64,000 nt of DNA from NCBI RefSeq assembly GCF_004402215.1, contig NZ_SOEZ01000054.1, positions 1 through 64,000 on the forward strand. Reading direction: 5' to 3'. Source of the DNA: Cryobacterium tagatosivorans (GTDB taxonomy: Bacteria; Actinomycetota; Actinomycetes; Actinomycetales; Microbacteriaceae). The notes beneath the pieces are model-generated. The model was given only the letters and a program-made list of their open reading frames with translations. It ran no database searches and was not told the origin of the DNA. A program made the position numbers and the translations under genes. This document shows, in pieces, positions 31,957 through 50,510 of this stretch; the first letter of the stretch is position 1; every line of letters begins with the position of its first letter.

Positions 31957-32063
31957 GTTCGCAGGGGTGTCCTGAGCCTCCGTAGTGCTGGACTCCTCAA
32001 GGCTCCCCTCCCCCGCTCCCGCGCAGGTCGTCTCGGCCACGGCGGGGCCCTGGCGGCTTGCGA

Positions 32064-32079
32064 TGTTTCACGTGAAACG
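32064..32079. promoter_or_regulatory. parS site 1
   Basis: TGTTTCACGTGAAACG, one base from the consensus TGTTTCACGTGAAACA bound by ParB. Confidence 0.95.
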
Positions 32080-32183
32080 CTCGGGCGTTGGCCCGGCCGG
32101 CCCGCTGCGTTCGCCGGGACTTCAGCCCACGTTCTGCGCGCGCTGAACTCGCGGTCCGCCCGCGATGCCGGCGCGATCCGGGA

Positions 32184-32199
32184 TGTTTCACGTGAAACG
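32184..32199. promoter_or_regulatory. parS site 2
   Basis: TGTTTCACGTGAAACG, identical to site 1 and 120 bp from it. Confidence 0.95.
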
Positions 32200-32571
32200 C
32201 GGCCAGTCGACGGCGAGCAGGTGATGTCATGTCCAATAAAATACCTGATCAAGCGCAATTTTCTGACGTCACGCCAAATCCCATGGATCCGGATCGATGC
32301 ACGCGCGGCGCGGCGCGACCGAGCCTGCCTGGGTCGGCGTGCCTGCAGTCGAGCCGGAGTCCGCCAGCGCCTCCGAGCCTGCCGACCCACCCACCCGTCG
32401 GCCCCGGGCCGAGCTGGTGTGCGGCGAACTCAGCAGAGTCCGGCGGCACTGGCCGAATCGGCGCGCCAGGGCCGCCTCCTGTGCCTGATCTCCTGAGTTG
32501 CCCCCTCCCTCTCCTCCGCAAGTCATCCTCAACCGGTCCCGACCGGCGGTGCCGATGACTGGCTATCACTC

Positions 32572-32663
32572 TTCACTGGCGCCCTCTACTGGCGCCGTTC
32601 ACCGACGCCGTTCACCGGCGTCCTTCACCGGCGGCGTCCCTCACCGGCGACCCTCACCGGCGC
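32572..32663. repeat. imperfect 12-13 bp tandem repeat
   Basis: About seven degenerate copies of TTCACCGGCGCCG-like units. It is not adjacent to a parS site. Confidence 0.75.
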
Positions 32664-32820
32664 CGCAGGCTGTCGCATGAATTCACGCGAAACACGACTG
32701 CGGCTCCACGCAACGACCACGCGGACGCGTCCTACCAAGAAATCGACCCGCGAGCGGCAATTTCGGAGATTCCGGATACACCGGTGGGAATCCGCACTAC
32801 ATCGGCGTGCCTGCCCCGGA

Positions 32821-32973
32821 TCTCCTGAGTTGACCACGCGCGGAACTCACCGGCGGCTCCCGGTCACGAGTCGGGTCATGTTTCACGTGAAACCTGGCGG
32901 TTCCACTTCAGTGGCCCTCCCCCGAACCGGAGCCGGCGAGGGAGCGCCGACCGCAAGTGGTCAACTCAGGAGA
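32821..32973. repeat. 16-bp inverted repeat enclosing parS site 3
   Basis: TCTCCTGAGTTGACCA (32821-32836) and its exact complement (32958-32973) bracket the parS at 32879-32894. Related direct copies of TCTCCTGAGTT occur at about 32489 and 33024. Confidence 0.85.
32879..32894. promoter_or_regulatory. parS site 3
   Basis: TGTTTCACGTGAAACC; last base differs from consensus. Confidence 0.95.
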
Positions 32974-33078
32974 ACCGACCCGATTCAGGCCGAACAGTGC
33001 CAGACGAGGTGGAATGCGCACGAATCTCCTGAGTTCGCCACGGGGATCACCCCTTGCCCACCTGGGGCTAGCCCCGCG

Positions 33079-33218
33079 GCGGGCAGCGGGGAGCGAGGTC
33101 CGTGCAGCGGGCAGCGGGGAGCGGGCACCGGGCACCGGGGAGCGGGCGCCGGGCACCGGGCAGCGGACACCGGGCAGCGGACACCGGACAGCGGACAGCG
33201 GGCAGCGGGCAGCGGGCG
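33079..33218. repeat. 7-bp tandem array, about 20 units, abutting parS site 4
   Basis: Units are variants of (G/C)CGGGCA. The array stays in 7-bp phase from 33079 to 33218 and ends one base before the parS site at 33220. Confidence 0.9.
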
Positions 33219-33219
33219 A

Positions 33220-33235
33220 TGTTTCACGTGAAACC
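33220..33235. promoter_or_regulatory. parS site 4
   Basis: TGTTTCACGTGAAACC, immediately after the 7-bp tandem array. Confidence 0.95.
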
Positions 33236-33561
33236 CCGCGGTCCTGGACCGAGTTGACGGCGCAGACATTCCTCGGCCATCCGGAATTCCACGCTGCTGT
33301 TCTCGACTGCCGGCCCAGGTCGCCACAAGGGAGGAAATCCGGCCAATCCGGGCACGTATCGCTGCTAATGGACGCAATTCGGCGAAGGCCAGCGTGCTGG
33401 GGTCTAAAGTCGGCTCCGGAGCAGGCACCTGCAAGTGCAAGCGGCCCGCAGGACGGCCGTCACAGGGGACAGCTGACGACTAGTTCTTACACAGCCGAGC
33501 GCGCGATGCACGCAAATTCGAAGCCGCGTCTTGCACGCACGGAATCGGCTTCTGTGGGCCA

Positions 33562-33577
33562 TGTTTCACGTGAAACT
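33562..33577. promoter_or_regulatory. parS site 5
   Basis: TGTTTCACGTGAAACT; last base differs from consensus. Confidence 0.95.
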
Positions 33578-33758
33578 TGCCGAACGGCACTCATGGTCGT
33601 AGGGAAACGCCCTCGAAATCGAGCACGTGTCGCCGCATGCCATGTGTCCCGACCCCCGGGCTAATGCCTGGCTCTGCTTCCTTCTGTTGTGGCCGCCGAC
33701 CCTGACTGCCGGCGGCCGTCGGGCGACGGGGCAACCGAGACCTCGTCAGGTGTGGCAG

Positions 33759-33774
33759 TATTTCACGTGAAACA
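33759..33774. promoter_or_regulatory. parS site 6 (variant)
   Basis: TATTTCACGTGAAACA; the second base is A instead of G, so binding may be weaker. Confidence 0.85.
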
Positions 33775-33910
33775 CACCCTCCCCCACCAGTGGCGTCCGA
33801 AGGCGAAGCGCCATGCGACCGGGTTCGCTCGCTTCTCCTGCCTCGGGCCGGGAAATGACACAGGGCGCGAATCGCCTCTCGCCGCCGGCATCTCCTTATC
33901 CCAGCATCCG

Positions 33911-33950
33911 GCAGGCAGCAGGAGGCAGCAGGAGGCAGCAGGAGGCAGCA
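33911..33950. repeat. 10-bp tandem array abutting parS site 7
   Basis: Three perfect copies of GGAGGCAGCA (33921-33950) follow one imperfect copy. The array touches the parS site directly. Confidence 0.92.
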
Positions 33951-33966
33951 TGTTTCACGTGAAACA
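33951..33966. promoter_or_regulatory. parS site 7 (full consensus)
   Basis: TGTTTCACGTGAAACA, the complete 16-bp palindrome. Confidence 0.97.
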
Positions 33967-34031
33967 TGGGGCGCGGAATGTCGGCCGGCCAAGGGCGTGC
34001 CTCCCAATGGCTAGCGCGCCGGTGATTTTGA

Positions 34032-34080
34032 GCTACGCGGGCGATACGCCGCTGCGCGGGTGGCGCAACGCCCGCGTAGC
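34032..34080. repeat. 12-bp perfect inverted repeat downstream of parB
   Basis: GCTACGCGGGCG (34032-34043) pairs with 34069-34080. It lies 230 bp beyond the parB stop and could form a GC-rich hairpin. No T-run follows. Confidence 0.75.
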
Positions 34081-34309
34081 GGCGTGCGGCCCGCGCATCC
34101 TGCCCGCGCCACCGAACTCGGAGACACCCCCAGTCCGGCCATATCACCGTGGCTTGCCGAGCGACTCGCGCATTGACACGGCCACGCGCGAGGGGCAGAT
34201 TCCGGTCCCAGCAAGTGCGACTGCCGACCGTGCGCTCGACCAACGGGCGCTCGAACGCGGTCGATTCGGCAGTTTTCGCGCCGTCAGGAACGATCCTGCG
34301 GGTCGAAAG

Positions 34310-35287
34310 CTAGTTGGCGCCGAAGCCCGGCTCGCCCAGGACGACAAGGATACGATTGAGGTCACCGATCGTAGCAAAATCCACTGTGATCTGGCCTTTT
34401 CTTGCTCCGAGGTTGATCTTCACCCGCGTGTCGAGGCGGTCGCCGAGGCGGTCGGCGATCTCGTCGAGGTGACCCTGACGTTTCCCGGGTGCTGGGCGCG
34501 TCGATGGCGCCTTCGGCACAGCCGACGCTGCGGCCTCGGCCGCGCGAACCGAAAGATCCTCGTTGACGATCTTGTCGGCGAGCCGGAGCATCCCCTGGTA
34601 GTCCCCCACCGACAGGATCGCCCGCGCGTGGCCGGCGCTGAGTACCCCGGCTGCCACCCGGAGCTGAACCGGTTCCGGGAGCTTCAGCAGACGCAGGGTA
34701 TTGGTGATTTGCGGCCGCGACCGACCAATCCGCGTCGCGAGCTCGTCCTGGGTGATGCCGAAATCGGCCAGCAGCTGCTGGTACGCCGACGCCTCTTCCA
34801 GCGGATTGAGCTGGGCGCGGTGCAGGTTCTCGAGCAGGGCATCGCGAAGCATGTCGACATCCGCGGTCTCGCGAACCACGGCCGGGATGGTCGACAGTCC
34901 AATCGCCTTGCTCGCACGCAGGCGACGCTCTCCCATGACCAATTCATACTTGCCAGGCTGCTCCAGCAGCGGACGCACGACGATCGGCTGCAGCACGCCG
35001 ACTTCGCGGATGCTGTGGATCAGTTCCGAGAGGTCGCTCTCGTCGAACACGGTGCGGGGCTGCACCGCGTTCGGAACGATGTCGGCCGGATCGAGGTGTG
35101 CCAGGCGGGCACCGGGCACGGGGAGGAGATCCTCCAGGTCATCGACGATCGCCTCGGCCGGGGCCTTGTCCGGATCCTGTCCTTCCGCGTAGGGGAAGAA
35201 CACGTCCACCGGGCGCGACAGCCGAGCCGGGTCCTGGACGGGAATCAATGCGCCAATGCCGCGGCCGAGGCCAGTCCGTTTCGCCAT
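34310..35287 (-). CDS. parB: chromosome partitioning protein ParB
   Basis: CTP-dependent ParB clamp (325 aa) that loads at parS and spreads to form the origin partition complex. It has the N-terminal peptide KRTGLGRGIGALIP that would contact ParA, and the CTPase/ParB box GERR at about 119-122 with ENLHR at about 153-157. The parS-reading helix-turn-helix is ITQDELATRIGRSRPQITNTLRLL. A C-terminal dimerisation domain ends in KINLGARKGQITVDFA. The start overlaps the parA stop by 1 bp (TAATG). Confidence 0.96.
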   Translation of the reverse strand: MAKRTGLGRGIGALIPVQDPARLSRPVDVFFPYAEGQDPDKAPAEAIVDDLEDLLPVPGARLAHLDPADIVPNAVQPRTVFDESDLSELIHSIREVGVLQPIVVRPLLEQPGKYELVMGERRLRASKAIGLSTIPAVVRETADVDMLRDALLENLHRAQLNPLEEASAYQQLLADFGITQDELATRIGRSRPQITNTLRLLKLPEPVQLRVAAGVLSAGHARAILSVGDYQGMLRLADKIVNEDLSVRAAEAAASAVPKAPSTRPAPGKRQGHLDEIADRLGDRLDTRVKINLGARKGQITVDFATIGDLNRILVVLGEPGFGAN

Positions 35288-36216
35288 TATTGCTGTGCTC
35301 CTGTTTCTGGGGCGCCCCGCCGGGCGATTTCTGCCGCTGCTTCGAGGTAGGAGAGCGATCCTGCGGAATTCAGGTCGTAACTGATGACACTCTGGCCGTA
35401 GCTCGGAGCCTCAGAAACGCGCACGGAACGCGGAATGAGGGTCTCGAGCACCTGGTCGGGGAAGTGGTCGCGGACATCCTGGGCCACCTGGTTGGCCAGG
35501 TTGGTGCGGCTGTCGTACATCGTGAGCAGGATCGTCGAGACCGCGAGTTCCGGATTGAGGTGCTTCTCGATCAGCTCGATATTCTTGAGCAGCTGACTGA
35601 GGCCCTCGAGCGCGTAGTACTCGCACTGGATCGGGATCAAAACCTCCCTGGCGGCCACGAAAGCATTGATCGTGAGCAGGCCCAGCGACGGGGGACAGTC
35701 GATGAAAACGTAGTGGTACGGCTCGGTCATTTCGCGCAGGTGAAGGTCAAGTGCGCGGCGCAGCCGCTGCTCACGGGCGACCAGCGACACGAGCTCGATT
35801 TCCGCTCCAGCCAGGTGAATTGTCGCCGGTACACAGAACAACGCGCCGAATTCCGGGCTCTTCTGGACGACATCCGCGAGCGGCATGTCGTTGATGATGA
35901 CGTCGTAAACGCTCGGCGTTTCGGCACGGTGTTCGACTCCGAGGGCGGTGGATGCGTTCCCCTGCGGGTCGAGGTCGATCACGAGGACGCGGGCGCCCAT
36001 GCGGGCCAGTGCTGCGGCGAGATTGACGGCCGTGGTCGTCTTCCCGACCCCGCCCTTCTGGTTCGACACGGTCAGGACCCGCGTCTTTTCGGGCCGGGGG
36101 AGCCTCTCGGAGGCGATCGCCTGGCGTCGACGGGTCAGGTCGGAGATCTCATGGGCAAGCGGCGTGTCGAATCCCGCTGGGCTGCTGACTTGCTGGTCTT
36201 CACCAGGATGTTTCAC
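35287..36216 (-). CDS. parA: chromosome partitioning ATPase ParA
   Basis: Deviant-Walker ATPase (309 aa) that drives movement of ParB-parS complexes over the nucleoid. The P-loop KGGVGKTT is at about residues 54-61, with the signature lysine K54. VLVIDLDPQGNASTALG is the A' motif and YVFIDCPPSLGLLTINA the Walker B region. The GTG start lies inside a parS site (36209-36224). This would let ParB binding affect parAB expression. First gene of parAB. Confidence 0.95.
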   Translation of the reverse strand: MKHPGEDQQVSSPAGFDTPLAHEISDLTRRRQAIASERLPRPEKTRVLTVSNQKGGVGKTTTAVNLAAALARMGARVLVIDLDPQGNASTALGVEHRAETPSVYDVIINDMPLADVVQKSPEFGALFCVPATIHLAGAEIELVSLVAREQRLRRALDLHLREMTEPYHYVFIDCPPSLGLLTINAFVAAREVLIPIQCEYYALEGLSQLLKNIELIEKHLNPELAVSTILLTMYDSRTNLANQVAQDVRDHFPDQVLETLIPRSVRVSEAPSYGQSVISYDLNSAGSLSYLEAAAEIARRGAPETGAQQ

Positions 36217-36224
36217 GTGAAACC
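36209..36224. promoter_or_regulatory. parS site 8, covering the parA start codon
   Basis: TGTTTCACGTGAAACC. The reverse-strand GTG start of parA (36216-36214) is the central GTG of this site. Confidence 0.95.
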
Positions 36225-36305
36225 TTTACGTTCGACGGTCGATGAGCCACCCGAAAGTGAACCTCGGTCTGTCTCTCACCCACGAGCGAGCGACGGTACC
36301 CGGGA

Positions 36306-36935
36306 CTAATCAACTGTAGCCCTAATGACCCTCGTGACCTCTTGCAGCACGCCCTCTCCGAGCGTAATCACTTCAACATTGCTCAGTCTGTACTTGCGGA
36401 TCGCCTTGGCGGCCGCGTCGATTTCGCCCTGCGCGCCGGCGCCCTTCATGAGCACCATTTCGCCGCCCGGCCGAAGCAGGGGAGCGGTCAGCGGGATGAG
36501 GGTCCGGAAGGCACTGACCGCCCGGGCGGTGACTTGGTCCAGCGGCCGCTCGAGCCGGACATCCTCGGCGCGCGCCCTCAGCACCGTCGTGTTCTCGAGG
36601 CCGAGCGCGCCCACCTGGTCGTTCAGCCAGGCCACCCGGCGCTCCATAGGCTCGATCAGCACGAACGAAACGTCCGGACGCGCGATGGCGAGGACCAGGC
36701 CCGGAAGGCCGGCACCCGATCCCACGTCGCCGACCACGCCGGGACGCAACAGGGGCGCCACAATCGCGCAGTTGAGAATGTGCCGGCTCCACAAACGAGG
36801 GAGCTCCAGCGGCCCGATCAAGCCACGAATTTCGCCCTGATCAGCTAAATTGTGAGCAAAGGCGCGCGCAACGTCGATTCTGTCGCCGAAGAGGCCCGCC
36901 GCGGCGGCAGGTTCGACCTCGAGCTGCTCCGTCAT
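36306..36935 (-). CDS. rsmG: 16S rRNA (guanine527-N7)-methyltransferase RsmG
   Basis: SAM-dependent methyltransferase (209 aa) that modifies G527 of 16S rRNA. The SAM-binding loop VGDVGSGAGLPGLVLAIARP is clear, followed by FVLIEPMERRVAWL. Loss of this enzyme is known to give low-level streptomycin resistance in other bacteria. It is 14 bp downstream of khpB in the standard rpmH-to-parB gene order. Confidence 0.95.
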   Translation of the reverse strand: MTEQLEVEPAAAAGLFGDRIDVARAFAHNLADQGEIRGLIGPLELPRLWSRHILNCAIVAPLLRPGVVGDVGSGAGLPGLVLAIARPDVSFVLIEPMERRVAWLNDQVGALGLENTTVLRARAEDVRLERPLDQVTARAVSAFRTLIPLTAPLLRPGGEMVLMKGAGAQGEIDAAAKAIRKYRLSNVEVITLGEGVLQEVTRVIRATVD

Positions 36936-36949
36936 CGTGTCACGTGCTG

Positions 36950-37531
36950 TTAGGCGCGCGAGATGACCGTGTGGCGGTCGCGGCCTTCGCCATTGGACTC
37001 GGACACGAAGCCGCGCTCGGAGACGAGGTCGTGCACGAGCTTGCGCTCGTACGACGACATCGGCGGAAGGGCGGCATCGGCGGCGCCGGCCTCGATCCGC
37101 TCGATCGCGCGACCGACCAGGGCCGAGAGTTCGGCCTGGCGCGCCTCGCGGGATCCGCCGATGTCCAGGATCAGGCGCGAGAACGAACCCGTCTTGTTCT
37201 GAACGGCCAGTCGGGTGAGTTCCTGGAGCGCGTTGACGGTGTCCGGCTTCGACAGCACGCGCAGCGTGTCTCCTTCGGCGGCGTTGACCGACACATAGGC
37301 CCGGCCGTTTCGGGCATCGATGTCGATGTCACCGTCGAGGTCGCAGATATCCAGGAATTCCTCGATGTAATCCGCGGCGATGTCGCCTTCCCGCTCGAGC
37401 TGGTCGACGGTGGGGGAGTCTTCACCGTTGGCAGCGCTGCCCTCGGCCTCGGGGCCCACGGTCGCCTCGGGCGCGGTGGCTTCTGCAGCGTCGGCGGGCA
37501 CGGTCGAGTCGGTTTCAGTCACGTCAGTCAC
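36950..37531 (-). CDS. khpB: KhpB/Jag-type RNA-binding protein (KH and R3H domains)
   Basis: RNA-binding protein (193 aa). After an acidic Ala/Thr-rich N-terminus comes a KH region (DYIEEFLDICDLDGDIDIDARNGRAYVSV) and a C-terminal R3H domain (LPPMSSYERKLVHDLVSERG). It lacks the N-terminal Jag domain of firmicute homologues. The GTG at 37531 was chosen because earlier in-frame starts lie inside yidC; a second GTG three codons on is possible. Confidence 0.85.
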   Translation of the reverse strand: MTDVTETDSTVPADAAEATAPEATVGPEAEGSAANGEDSPTVDQLEREGDIAADYIEEFLDICDLDGDIDIDARNGRAYVSVNAAEGDTLRVLSKPDTVNALQELTRLAVQNKTGSFSRLILDIGGSREARQAELSALVGRAIERIEAGAADAALPPMSSYERKLVHDLVSERGFVSESNGEGRDRHTVISRA

Positions 37532-41595: not shown

Positions 41596-42744
41596 GTGAG
41601 ATTCCAGGCCAACCGGGACGTTTTCAGCGAAGCTGTATCGTTTGCGGTCAAGCTTCTCCCCCAGCGCACCACCCTGCCGATCCTCAGTGGCGTGCTGATT
41701 GAAGCGACCGAGACCGGGCTGATCCTCTCGTCGTTCGACTACGAAGTCTCGGCCCAGACCGAAATCGCCGCCGATGTCGAAGAAACCGGCAAGGTTCTCG
41801 TCTCCGGCCGGCTGCTGGCCGAGATCGCCAGCCGGATGCCCAACGCCCCGGTTCGGTTCTCGACCAATGAGTCGCGCATTTCGGTCAGCTGCGGCTCGGC
41901 GAACTTCACGCTCCTGTCCATGCCGGTCGAGGAATATCCCAGCATTCCTCAGGTTGGCGCCCAGTCCGGCCTCGTTCCCGCCGAAGAATTCGCCATGGCC
42001 GTCGGCCAGGTCGCCGTCGCCGCCTCCCGTGACGATGTCACCCCCGTGATCACGGGGGTCCAACTCGAAATAACCGAGAACAGCCTGAGCCTGGTGGCCA
42101 CGGACCGCTACCGCGTCGCCGTGCGTGAAATCGACTGGGACCGCGGCTCAAACGAAGGCCAGGGCACGATCACCGCGCTGGTCCCGGCCCGCACCCTGCA
42201 GGAGGTCGGCAAGACGTTCGGCCACAGCGGCACCATCTCGGTGGCCATCACCAGCACGGATGACCGCGAACTCATCGCCTTCACGGCGGAGAAGAAGACC
42301 GTGACGTCCTTGCTGATCAAGGGCAATTTCCCGCCCGTCCGGCGCTTGTTCCCCGAGACCGTTGACAACTACGCGGTGATCAACACCGCCGAACTGATCG
42401 AGGCGACCCGGCGCGTGCAGCTCGTCCTCGAGCGCGAAGCGGCCCTGCGCTTCACCTTCGCCGCCGACGGCCTGACCCTCGAGGCGATCGGTTCCGAGCA
42501 GGCCCAGGCCTCCGAGAAGATCGATGCGATCCTCTCCGGCACGGAGACCGTCGTCTCACTGAAGCCGCAGTTCCTGCTGGACGGCCTCGGCGCTGTTCAC
42601 TCCGAGTTCGTGCGGATCTCGTTCACGAAGACCGAGAACCCGAACAAGCCCGGCCCGGTTCTCATCACCAGCCAGAATTCGCGCGACCAGCCGGGAGCCG
42701 ACAGCTACAAGTACCTGCTGCAGCCCAACCTCCTCCTGCGCTAA
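41596..42744 (+). CDS. dnaN: DNA polymerase III sliding clamp, beta subunit
   Basis: Sliding clamp (382 aa) that tethers DNA polymerase III to DNA. Three clamp domains are present. The N-terminus reads FQANRDVFSEAVSFAVKLLPQRTTLPILSGVLIEA and the C-terminus ends in YKYLLQPNLLLR. The GTG start at 41596 is preceded by AGGAG. Confidence 0.97.
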   Translation: MRFQANRDVFSEAVSFAVKLLPQRTTLPILSGVLIEATETGLILSSFDYEVSAQTEIAADVEETGKVLVSGRLLAEIASRMPNAPVRFSTNESRISVSCGSANFTLLSMPVEEYPSIPQVGAQSGLVPAEEFAMAVGQVAVAASRDDVTPVITGVQLEITENSLSLVATDRYRVAVREIDWDRGSNEGQGTITALVPARTLQEVGKTFGHSGTISVAITSTDDRELIAFTAEKKTVTSLLIKGNFPPVRRLFPETVDNYAVINTAELIEATRRVQLVLEREAALRFTFAADGLTLEAIGSEQAQASEKIDAILSGTETVVSLKPQFLLDGLGAVHSEFVRISFTKTENPNKPGPVLITSQNSRDQPGADSYKYLLQPNLLLR

Positions 42745-47439: not shown

Positions 47440-50017
47440 CGACACCCCCGACACCCCCGGTGAGAACACGGTCGAGGCCGCGGACGCCGCGGCCGCGGCC
47501 AAGTACCTGATCCAGCACGGCAAGATCGACCAGGTCGACCTGCAGCTGGAAATGCAGCGGTCCTACCTCGACTACGCGATGAGCGTCATCGTCGGGCGCG
47601 CCCTGCCCGACGTGCGCGACGGCATGAAGCCGGTGCACCGCCGCGTGATCTACGCGATGTTCGACGGCGGCTACCGCCCCGACAAGGCGTTCTCGAAGTG
47701 CGCCCGCGTGGTCGGCGACGTGATGGGCCAGTTCCACCCGCACGGCGACTCCTCGATCTACGACGCCCTCGTTCGCCTCGTCCAGCCGTGGAGCCTGCGC
47801 TACCCGCTGGCCCTCGGCCAGGGCAACTTCGGCTCCCCCGGAAACGACGGCGCCGCCGCCCCCCGGTACACCGAAACGAAGATGGCCCCGCTCGCCCTCG
47901 AGATGGTGCGGGACATCGACGAAGACACCGTCGACTTCCAGGACAACTACGACGGCCGCACGCTCGAGCCGACCGTGCTCCCCGCCCGCTTCCCGAACCT
48001 GCTGGTCAACGGCTCGGTCGGCATCGCGGTCGGCATGGCCACGAACATCCCGCCGCACAACCTGCGCGAGGTGGCATCCGGCGCCCTCTGGTACCTCGAG
48101 CACCCCGAGGCAACCCGCGAGGAGCTGCTCGAGGCCCTGATCCAGCGGATCAAGGGCCCCGACTTCCCCACCGGCGCCCAGATCCTCGGCATCAAGGGCA
48201 TCCAGGATGCCTACCGCACCGGCCGCGGATCGATCACGATGCGCGCCGTGGTCAACATCGAGGAACTCCAGGGTCGCACCTGCCTGGTCATCACCGAGCT
48301 GCCCTACCAGGTGAACCCGGACAACCTCGCGATCAAGATCGCGGACCTCGTCAAGGATGCCAAGATCACCGGCATCGCCGACATCCGTGACGAGACCTCC
48401 GGCCGCACCGGCCAGCGCCTCGTCATCGTGCTCAAGCGCGACGCGGTCGCGAAGGTCGTGCTGAACAACCTGTACAAGCACACCCAGCTGCAGGACAACT
48501 TCGGCGCGAACATGCTCGCCATCGTCGACGGCATCCCGCGCACGCTCGCCCTGGACGGCTTCATCACCGCCTGGGTAGCGCACCAGATCGAGGTCATCGT
48601 TCGGCGCACCCAGTTCCGCCTGAACAAGGCCGAGGCCGACGCGCACATCCTGCGCGGCTACCTCAAGGCCCTCGACGCCCTCGACGAGGTCATCGCGCTG
48701 ATCCGCCGCTCGGCGACCGTCGACGACGCCCGCGAAGGACTGATGGCCCTGCTCGAGGTCGACAAGCTCCAGGCCGACGCGATCCTCACCATGCAGCTGC
48801 GTCGCCTGGCCGCCCTGGAACGACAGAAGATCATCGACCAGGCCGCCGAACTCGAGCTGCAGATCGCCGAGTTCAAGTCGATCCTGGCCAGCCCGGAGCG
48901 CCAGCGCACGATCATCAGCGAGGAACTCGGTGAGATCACCGCCAAGTTCGGCGACGACCGGCGCACCGAGATCATGTTCGGCTTCGACGGCGACATGTCG
49001 ATCGAGGACCTCATCCCCGAAGAGGAGATGGTGGTCACCGTCACCCGCGGCGGCTACATCAAGCGCACGCGCAGCGACAACTACCGCAACCAGCACCGCG
49101 GCGGCAAGGGTGTCAAGGGCGCCCAGCTCCGCGCTGATGACGTCGTGGAGCACTTCTTCGTCACCACGACGCACCACTGGCTGCTGTTCTTCACCAACAC
49201 CGGCCGGGTCTACCGCGCCAAGGCGTACGAGGCCGTCGAATCCGGCCGCGACGCGAAGGGCCAGCACGTCGCCAACCTGCTGGCGCTGCAGCCGGGCGAG
49301 GAGATCGCGCAGATCCTCGACATCCGCGACTACGGGGTGGCGCAGTACCTCACCCTGGCCACGCGAGACGGCCTGATCAAGAAGACCGCCCTCAGCGAGT
49401 ACGACACCAACCGCACCGGCGGCATCATCGCGATCAAGCTGCGCGAGGGCGACGAGCTCGTGTCCGCGCTGCTGGTCGACGAGGACTCCGACCTGCTGCT
49501 CGTGTCCCGCAAGGGCATGTCCATCCGGTTCACCGCGACGGACGAGGCGCTTCGCCCGATGGGCCGCAGCACCTCCGGCGTGATCGGCATGCACTTCCGC
49601 GGCGAGGACAAGCTGCTCGACGCATCCGTCGTCTCGGATGACGGCTACGTCTTCGTGGTGACGGAGGGCGGCTACGCCAAGCGCACCGCGGCGGACCAGT
49701 ACCGCCTGCAGAACCGCGGCGGGCTCGGCATCAAGGTGGCCAAGCTCAACGAGGACCGGGGCGACCTGGTGGGCGCCCTGATCGTCGACGAGGGCGACGA
49801 GGTGCTCGTGGTCCTCGCCAGCGGCAAGGTGGTACGCTCTGACGTCGCTGAAGTCCCCGCCAAGGGACGCGACACGATGGGCGTGGTCTTCGCGAAATTT
49901 GCGGAGCAGGACAGGATCATTGCCATAGCAAAGAACACCGAACGCAATCTGGTGGCCGAACTGGTTGACGCCGCCCCGGAGAGCGACTCGGAGAAAGCAG
50001 AGTCAGTAGATGAGTAG
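47429..50017 (+). CDS. gyrA: DNA gyrase subunit A
   Basis: Cleavage subunit (862 aa) of gyrase. The active-site tyrosine is in [12 protein letters not shown]. The quinolone-resistance region reads [15 protein letters not shown], with serine and aspartate at the two usual resistance positions, so no classical resistance change is seen. C-terminal beta-pinwheel repeats include the GyrA box QHRGGKG. The TTG start overlaps gyrB by 11 bp. Confidence 0.97.
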
Positions 50018-50414
50018 CGTCGCAGAGAAGCTTGCCAAGAAGTCCACCCGCAGGACGTCCACGAAGCAGGTGCGCCTCAAGCTGGTGTACATCGACTTCT
50101 GGTCGAGCGTGAAGCTGTCGTTCCTCGTCGCGGTCTGCCTGGCCATTGTCACGATCGTCGCCACGTTCCTGATCTTCACGGTCCTCAACCAGACCATGAT
50201 CTTCGACACGGTCGACGACCTGTACACCTCGATCGCCGGCGACTCGTCCGACCTGGCGAGCATCCTCTCGCTCGGGAACGTCATGGGCTTCGCCACTGTC
50301 GTGGCCGTGCTCAACACGGTCGTCACCACGGCCCTGGGGGCCATTTTCGCCCTGCTGTACAACCTCAGCGTCAAGATGACCGGCGGCCTGCTCGTCGGTT
50401 TCACGAACAACTAG
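50010..50414 (+). CDS. DUF3566 domain membrane protein
   Basis: A 134-residue protein with a basic N-terminus and two membrane helices ([24 protein letters not shown] and [24 protein letters not shown]). It matches DUF3566, always found next to gyrA in actinobacteria (Rv0007 position in M. tuberculosis). The function is unknown. It overlaps the gyrA 3' end by 8 bp. Confidence 0.88.
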
Positions 50415-50510
50415 TTCCAGAAACACAGTTTCACGTGGAACCAGTCGGATTTCTCCCCTCTCGATTGGGAGAAACCGGCTGGTTCCGGTAGTCTCAAATC
50501 TGCCCAATAG

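Follow-up and report, generated by a model that had tools for sequence, protein, structure and literature searches.

The 64,000-nucleotide stretch of Cryobacterium tagatosivorans DNA analyzed here, referred to as the window, comprises an oriC-type region with dnaA and dnaN on the plus strand and yidC, jag (featuring an R3H domain), rsmG, parA, and parB on the minus strand (Table 1). The window harbors a chromosomal ParABS system, in that a deviant-Walker ParA (KGGVGKT) is encoded beside a ParB with both ParB_N and HTH_ParB domains, and parS palindromes are clustered near dnaA/dnaN. Among the best 80 of 594 matches of this ParA, the closest named one is found in Homoserinibacter gongjuensis (Microbacteriaceae), with 80% identity. 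Nine parS sites with up to three mismatches are present in the window, compared to 0.03 expected from shuffled sequences. The region from 32.0 to 36.2 kb contains eight of them, seven of which are located 2.2 to 4.2 kb from the one at the start of parA. The 2.35 kb between the D-Ala-D-Ala ligase gene and parB (31957-34309) hold these seven sites, together with several tandem repeats with units of 7, 10, 13, and 16 bp. An isolated, degenerate parS-like site with one mismatch to the 14-mer core (50427-50442) is found ~14 kb from the cluster, directly after a small ORF (50010-50414) that itself follows an ORF named gyrA-like by eye.

TABLE 1 Features of the parAB region and its surroundings in the window
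Feature	Position	Strand	Basis and remarks
parS	32064..32079	.	parS scan
parS	32184..32199	.	parS scan
parS	32879..32894	.	parS scan
parS	33220..33235	.	parS scan
parS	33562..33577	.	parS scan
parS, one core mismatch	33759..33774	.	parS scan
parS, perfect 16-mer	33951..33966	.	parS scan
parB, 325 aa	34310..35287	-	ParB_N, HTH_ParB; 1-nt overlap between its ATG and the parA stop
parA, 309 aa	35287..36216	-	ORF; AAA_31 6.4e-60 (Pfam); ParA/Soj structure matches (PDB)
parS	36209..36224	.	14-bp core 36210-36223 perfect; TGTTTCACGTGAAACC on the plus strand; 1 mismatch to the 16-mer
parA GTG start codon, within parS	36214..36216	-	Sequence and ORF call; onset of codon periodicity in relatives
SD-like AAAGG, 6 nt 5' of GTG	36223..36227	-	Sequence; both Gs are part of the 16-bp parS
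In-frame TAA stop 5' of GTG	36226..36228	-	Sequence; closes the frame
rsmG/gidB, next gene upstream of parA, same strand	36306..36935	-	GidB 3.3e-42
Candidate parAB -10 element TACAGT, inside the rsmG end	36313..36318	-	Conservation, Thr codon; promoter role putative
dnaA	39804-41237	+	ORF
dnaN	41596-42744	+	ORF

The earlier note on this DNA had claimed that the GTG of parA is the central GTG of a parS site, and this was borne out by the coordinates, which place the start codon (36216-36214 on the minus strand) inside a parS with a perfect core (36209-36224). Read on the minus strand, the parA start region is TAAAGGTTTCACGTGAAACATCC, featuring an in-frame TAA, AAAGG, six bases (TTTCAC), and GTG, so that the parA frame crosses the site as TAA-AGG-TTT-CAC-GTG-AAA-CAT. 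The sequence AAGGTTTCACGTGAAACATCC occurs as a single exact copy in the window, and five other parS sites match it with at most three mismatches, all of them needing three. From the TAA to KGGVGKT, only one other in-frame ATG, GTG, or TTG is found, 12 nt before KGGVGKT and inside TVSNQKGG, where it falls in the first strand of the ATPase core and is hence unusable. A real parA start far from parS, which the earlier note had named as the counter-case, is therefore not indicated: the window offers no usable alternative, and in relatives the codon periodicity begins at parS (see below). The Shine-Dalgarno-like (SD) sequence and the GTG are read from the window itself, and the onset of the coding signal is taken from relatives. 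ParB loading at this parS would cover the start region of parA.

To see how widespread this arrangement is, we turned to the Microbacteriaceae, for which 299 genomes were searched and 297 matched; 148 loci from the better-scoring half of the matches were used, G283 and G113 being excluded from the best 150 because their matches lie near a contig end. In 91 of the 148 loci, the nearest parS 5' of the ATPase motif lies inside the open frame with its GTG in the parA frame; the remaining loci have this parS inside the open frame in the VSRET frame (21 loci), upstream of the frame (28 loci), or not within 1 kb (8 loci). Of the 91 in-frame loci, 54 have an AGG immediately 5' of TTTCAC-GTG, versus 12 of 616 control flanks, which were taken from other parS sites in both orientations. 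The corresponding odds ratio of 73 (Fisher) ignores kinship, and we therefore also counted one locus per genus, where 17 of 30 carry the abutting AGG. At the position immediately flanking the 14-bp core, G is found in 58/91 in-frame loci and T in 153/281 other perfect-core sites, suggesting that the ribosome site has overwritten the edge base of parS. Altogether, the SD-abutting form is present in 61 of 148 loci and 19 of 47 genera, including each of the six genomes sampled from the genus of the window. Across these 61 loci, the distance from the GTG to the ATPase motif spans 49 to 239 amino acids and the register between parS and GTG stays constant; eight of them carry one-base core variants, all of which spare the GTG. 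Abutting SDs are missing in 30 of the 91 GTG-frame loci, and such loci, in some of which the SD follows parS, were not counted as starting in parS. Judged by these counts, the SD-abutting parS start is a conserved and common form in Microbacteriaceae.

Substitution patterns point to the same start. Among SD-abutting loci, 27 close pairs from eight genera were compared, with genomes shared between pairs. Downstream of parS, their substitutions are distributed over the three codon positions as 89/37/324, compared to 192/187/199 upstream of parS. With one pair per genus, the counts are 31/18/85 downstream versus 34/32/35 upstream, and the periodicity is already visible in the first 18 nt past parS (23/7/32). 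The 12 nt before the GTG show 16 changes in 324 comparisons, a near-invariance that is partly built in, since the loci were selected by their SD and parS letters. Given that reading frame, SD, and codon periodicity in relatives agree, we consider the parA start at the parS GTG to be real. The overlap, the reality of this start, and its conservation are all shown at the level of sequence. A different picture emerged for loci with an ATG, GTG, or TTG at the edge of parS: in the single genus that could be tested, the first 17 nt past parS are not periodic (6/4/6), suggesting that translation there probably starts farther on.

Other loci join parS and the parA start differently. A second way to build a start from parS is found in L238, L243, and L245 (one further genus) and in Microbacterium sp. 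MYb54 (L007), which feature AAAGGAG, a short spacer, and an ATG that takes its TG from the outer TG of parS. Of the 28 loci whose parS is located 5' of the parA frame, 16 have a start with an SD-like 4-mer 26 to 49 nt past the first base of parS. This spacing is exactly 35 nt in eight of the 28 (L122, L123, L124, L167, L190, L191, L202, and L204), where parS stays beside the translation start by another route. Over all forms, the interval from -10 to +60 relative to the first base of parS includes a start with an SD-like 4-mer in 100 of 148 loci, a raw count taken with no background control.

A search at the order level covered 149 genomes (148 matched), from which 85 loci were classed, 60 of them hand-picked, roughly one per genus. 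These comprise five Microbacteriaceae loci outside the 148, all with the GTG frame, and 80 loci from 19 other families; L233 to L235 are duplicates of genomes already counted. Among the 80, 42 have a VSRET-frame parS inside the open frame, one has a GTG-frame parS there, 14 have parS upstream of the frame, and 23 have none within 1 kb. In a metagenome-assembled genome titled Auritidibacter (Micrococcaceae, L019), AGG abuts an in-frame parS GTG, and the SD-abutting form is therefore not strictly bound to Microbacteriaceae. On a larger scale, 31 of 36 loci from Actinobacteria have a parS within 450 nt 5' of the ATPase motif, versus 3 of 44 loci from other phyla; L032, titled "uncultured bacterium," is counted with Actinobacteria, as are L036 (Brevibacterium) and L039 (Propionibacteriaceae), both assigned by hand. 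In these samples, parS as the parA start codon thus appears common in Microbacteriaceae and rare in the other families, and the location of parS near the 5' end of parA looks old in Actinobacteria. This location could also be compatible with selected regulation.

The parS sites of Microbacteriaceae favor gene junctions, namely, near the rsmG start, at the parA start, and after parB. A parS near the rsmG start was found in 81 of 124 loci, and in 43 of these 81 it overlaps an upstream TAG, which we read as the jag stop (e.g., L091 and L129). At the corresponding junction of the window (36936-36952, minus strand), the gap separating jag from rsmG has just a CACGTG (36941-36946) that resembles a decayed parS. 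The segments running from the ATPase motif to 1650 nt past it, 194.7 kb in total from 118 loci, contain no parS. Packing into gene junctions would thus explain the placement of parS without a control circuit.

Next, we asked where transcription of parAB might start. A scan of positions 35200 to 37000 for sigma-70 promoters and terminators returned nothing. A -10 element at a fixed distance from the GTG was not found either, TAnnnT sequences being scattered upstream, and this pointed to a motif in the end of rsmG. TAnAGT (mostly TACAGT) is present at this place in 107 of 124 Microbacteriaceae loci, in 96 of these 107 exactly 10 nt before the rsmG stop, and was not found in any of the 35 loci of other families in which rsmG was located (24/148 Microbacteriaceae and 25/60 order-level loci in which the rsmG motif was not found are outside these denominators). 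The Thr codon within the motif, ACA, makes up 4.9% of the Thr codons elsewhere in these loci. Split by form, the motif is carried by 52 of the 53 loci with an abutting SD and by 55 of the remaining 71. Such conservation at the DNA level fits a -10 element (TAnnnT), and TACAGT is likely part of a family-specific parAB promoter. In the window, TACAGT is located ~100 nt 5' of the GTG, its first base being 95 nt from the parS core; transcription would then start near 36306 and parS would be located at about +80 to +100. In 58 of the 61 loci with an abutting SD, the candidate -10 element and parS are 38 to 176 nt apart, so that parS tracks the start codon and not TACAGT. A leaderless start at the GTG was considered unlikely, because an SD abuts it.

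Taken together, we think it likely that a single stretch serves both as a ParB loading site and as the parA translation start, that it is kept mainly as a centromere, and that any effect on expression is secondary. As duplex DNA, it would be one of eight oriC-proximal parS sites on which ParB-CTP is expected, by analogy with the known system, to load and then slide away. As mRNA, it would provide the translation start of parA, consisting of AAAGG, the 6-nt spacer TTTCAC, and GTG. Most likely, the site is maintained chiefly for its centromere role and has been fitted into a compact operon junction, and any effect of ParB on parAB expression would be common to the other parS sites, probably with no dedicated circuit behind it.

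The earlier note had gone further and proposed a feedback between the size of the partition complex and parAB expression. ParB feedback on parAB is possible, yet we regard it as unlikely that a dedicated circuit exists in which ParB nucleating at the parA-start parS represses parAB through a promoter-proximal or early elongation block, such that parA output senses the size of the partition complex. Such a circuit would account for the actinobacterial preference for parS at most 450 nt 5' of the ATPase motif, which is kept in differing reading frames, and for the parS density upstream of this motif, which at 2.22 per kb is the highest of six zones in 118 Microbacteriaceae loci. There are precedents as well: for Mycobacterium bovis BCG, it was suggested in 2008 that ParB blocks the transcription of parA or the translation of its mRNA (PMC2346475), and in Pseudomonas aeruginosa ParB represses the genes adjoining the intergenic parS3 and parS4, with excess ParB lowering the mRNA of genes beside parS1 to parS4 (PMC5521831). 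However, seven further parS sites lie within 4.2 kb, from which spreading ParB could cover the region without the parA-start parS, and this site is therefore unlikely to set regional ParB occupancy alone. The variable distance between the -10-like motif and parS also speaks against a dedicated block, as does the finding that elongating RNA polymerase passes B. subtilis ParB complexes in vitro, being slowed by ~20% at the highest ParB level only, with any ParB repression suggested to act at initiation (PMC10681803). Moreover, according to a review passage, three genes are affected in the ParB1 zone of Vibrio cholerae and none beside B. subtilis parS (PMC7022226). It is tempting to speculate on a two-way homeostat, in which the Microbacteriaceae parA start was rebuilt on parS, ParB nucleation at about +80 to +100 throttles parAB, transcription displaces loading ParB, and the position of parS is selected relative to the ribosome start and not to the promoter, but we hold this to be rather improbable.

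Two further readings dispense with ParB or with the overlap itself. The palindrome might fold in the mRNA, hide the start codon, and tune parA translation independently of ParB, given that the 14-mer can pair with itself into a 5-bp hairpin that has the start codon partly in its loop and partly next to it. This fold is weak, with just -2.3 kcal/mol alone and -3.7 to -3.8 kcal/mol with flanks, and it leaves accessibility unaffected, the mean unpaired probability of the start codon in the 61 loci being 0.47 versus 0.49 when the parS letters are shuffled; in addition, the 156-nt leader region of the window folds no better than its shuffles (z 0.88). We therefore rejected hairpin control as very improbable. 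Alternatively, the start could be miscalled or the overlap due to chance, with translation beginning elsewhere and parS merely located in the leader. Some relatives do have an SD-supported start ~35 nt past the first base of parS (e.g., L122 and L190), but in the window no in-frame start other than the GTG is usable, the GTG has an abutting SD, and relatives with the SD-abutting form show periodicity starting at parS, so that we consider a miscall extremely unlikely.

If the site indeed combines centromere and translation start, one 21-bp stretch carries a centromere site and a gene start signal, which normally evolve apart. The arrangement also represents a clean natural test of ParB feedback on parAB: with the palindrome broken and the start signal kept, the two functions could become separable. 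For annotation, our results suggest that the parS GTG should in many cases be chosen as the start of Microbacteriaceae parA genes, which in the 61 SD-abutting loci places 49 to 239 residues N-terminal to the ATPase motif. In the titles, abstract openings, and passages of the open-licence literature, we found no report of a parA that starts inside parS.

Several known systems come close to this arrangement. Mycobacterium (M. bovis BCG and M. smegmatis) shares the jag-gidB-parA-parB region near oriC, and M. bovis BCG has one parS 5' of gidB and another within the coding region of parA (PMC2346475). There, however, the ParA has a long N terminus and its coding sequence encloses parS, whereas in the window, the start codon of parA and part of its SD fall within the parS itself. 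For Streptomyces coelicolor, a single parS is described in a 365-bp fragment of the parAB promoter region (PMC12511625). In the eight Streptomyces loci that we compared, parS is likewise found near the 5' end of parA, but encodes VSRET inside the ORF, 138 nt before KGG; since the sequence 5' of parS is codon periodic (31/27/90, in windows shifted by one codon, with the frame unaffected), parS in Streptomyces is internal coding sequence. P. aeruginosa parS3 and parS4 resemble the site as oriC-proximal, intergenic parS sites that influence neighboring genes, but they are not located at parA, and repression has been demonstrated there and is a candidate effect in the window (PMC5521831). Control by ParB via a parS within parA was already put forward for M. 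bovis BCG (PMC2346475), and what appears to be new, as far as the literature covered here goes, is a parS that forms the start codon of parA together with part of its SD.
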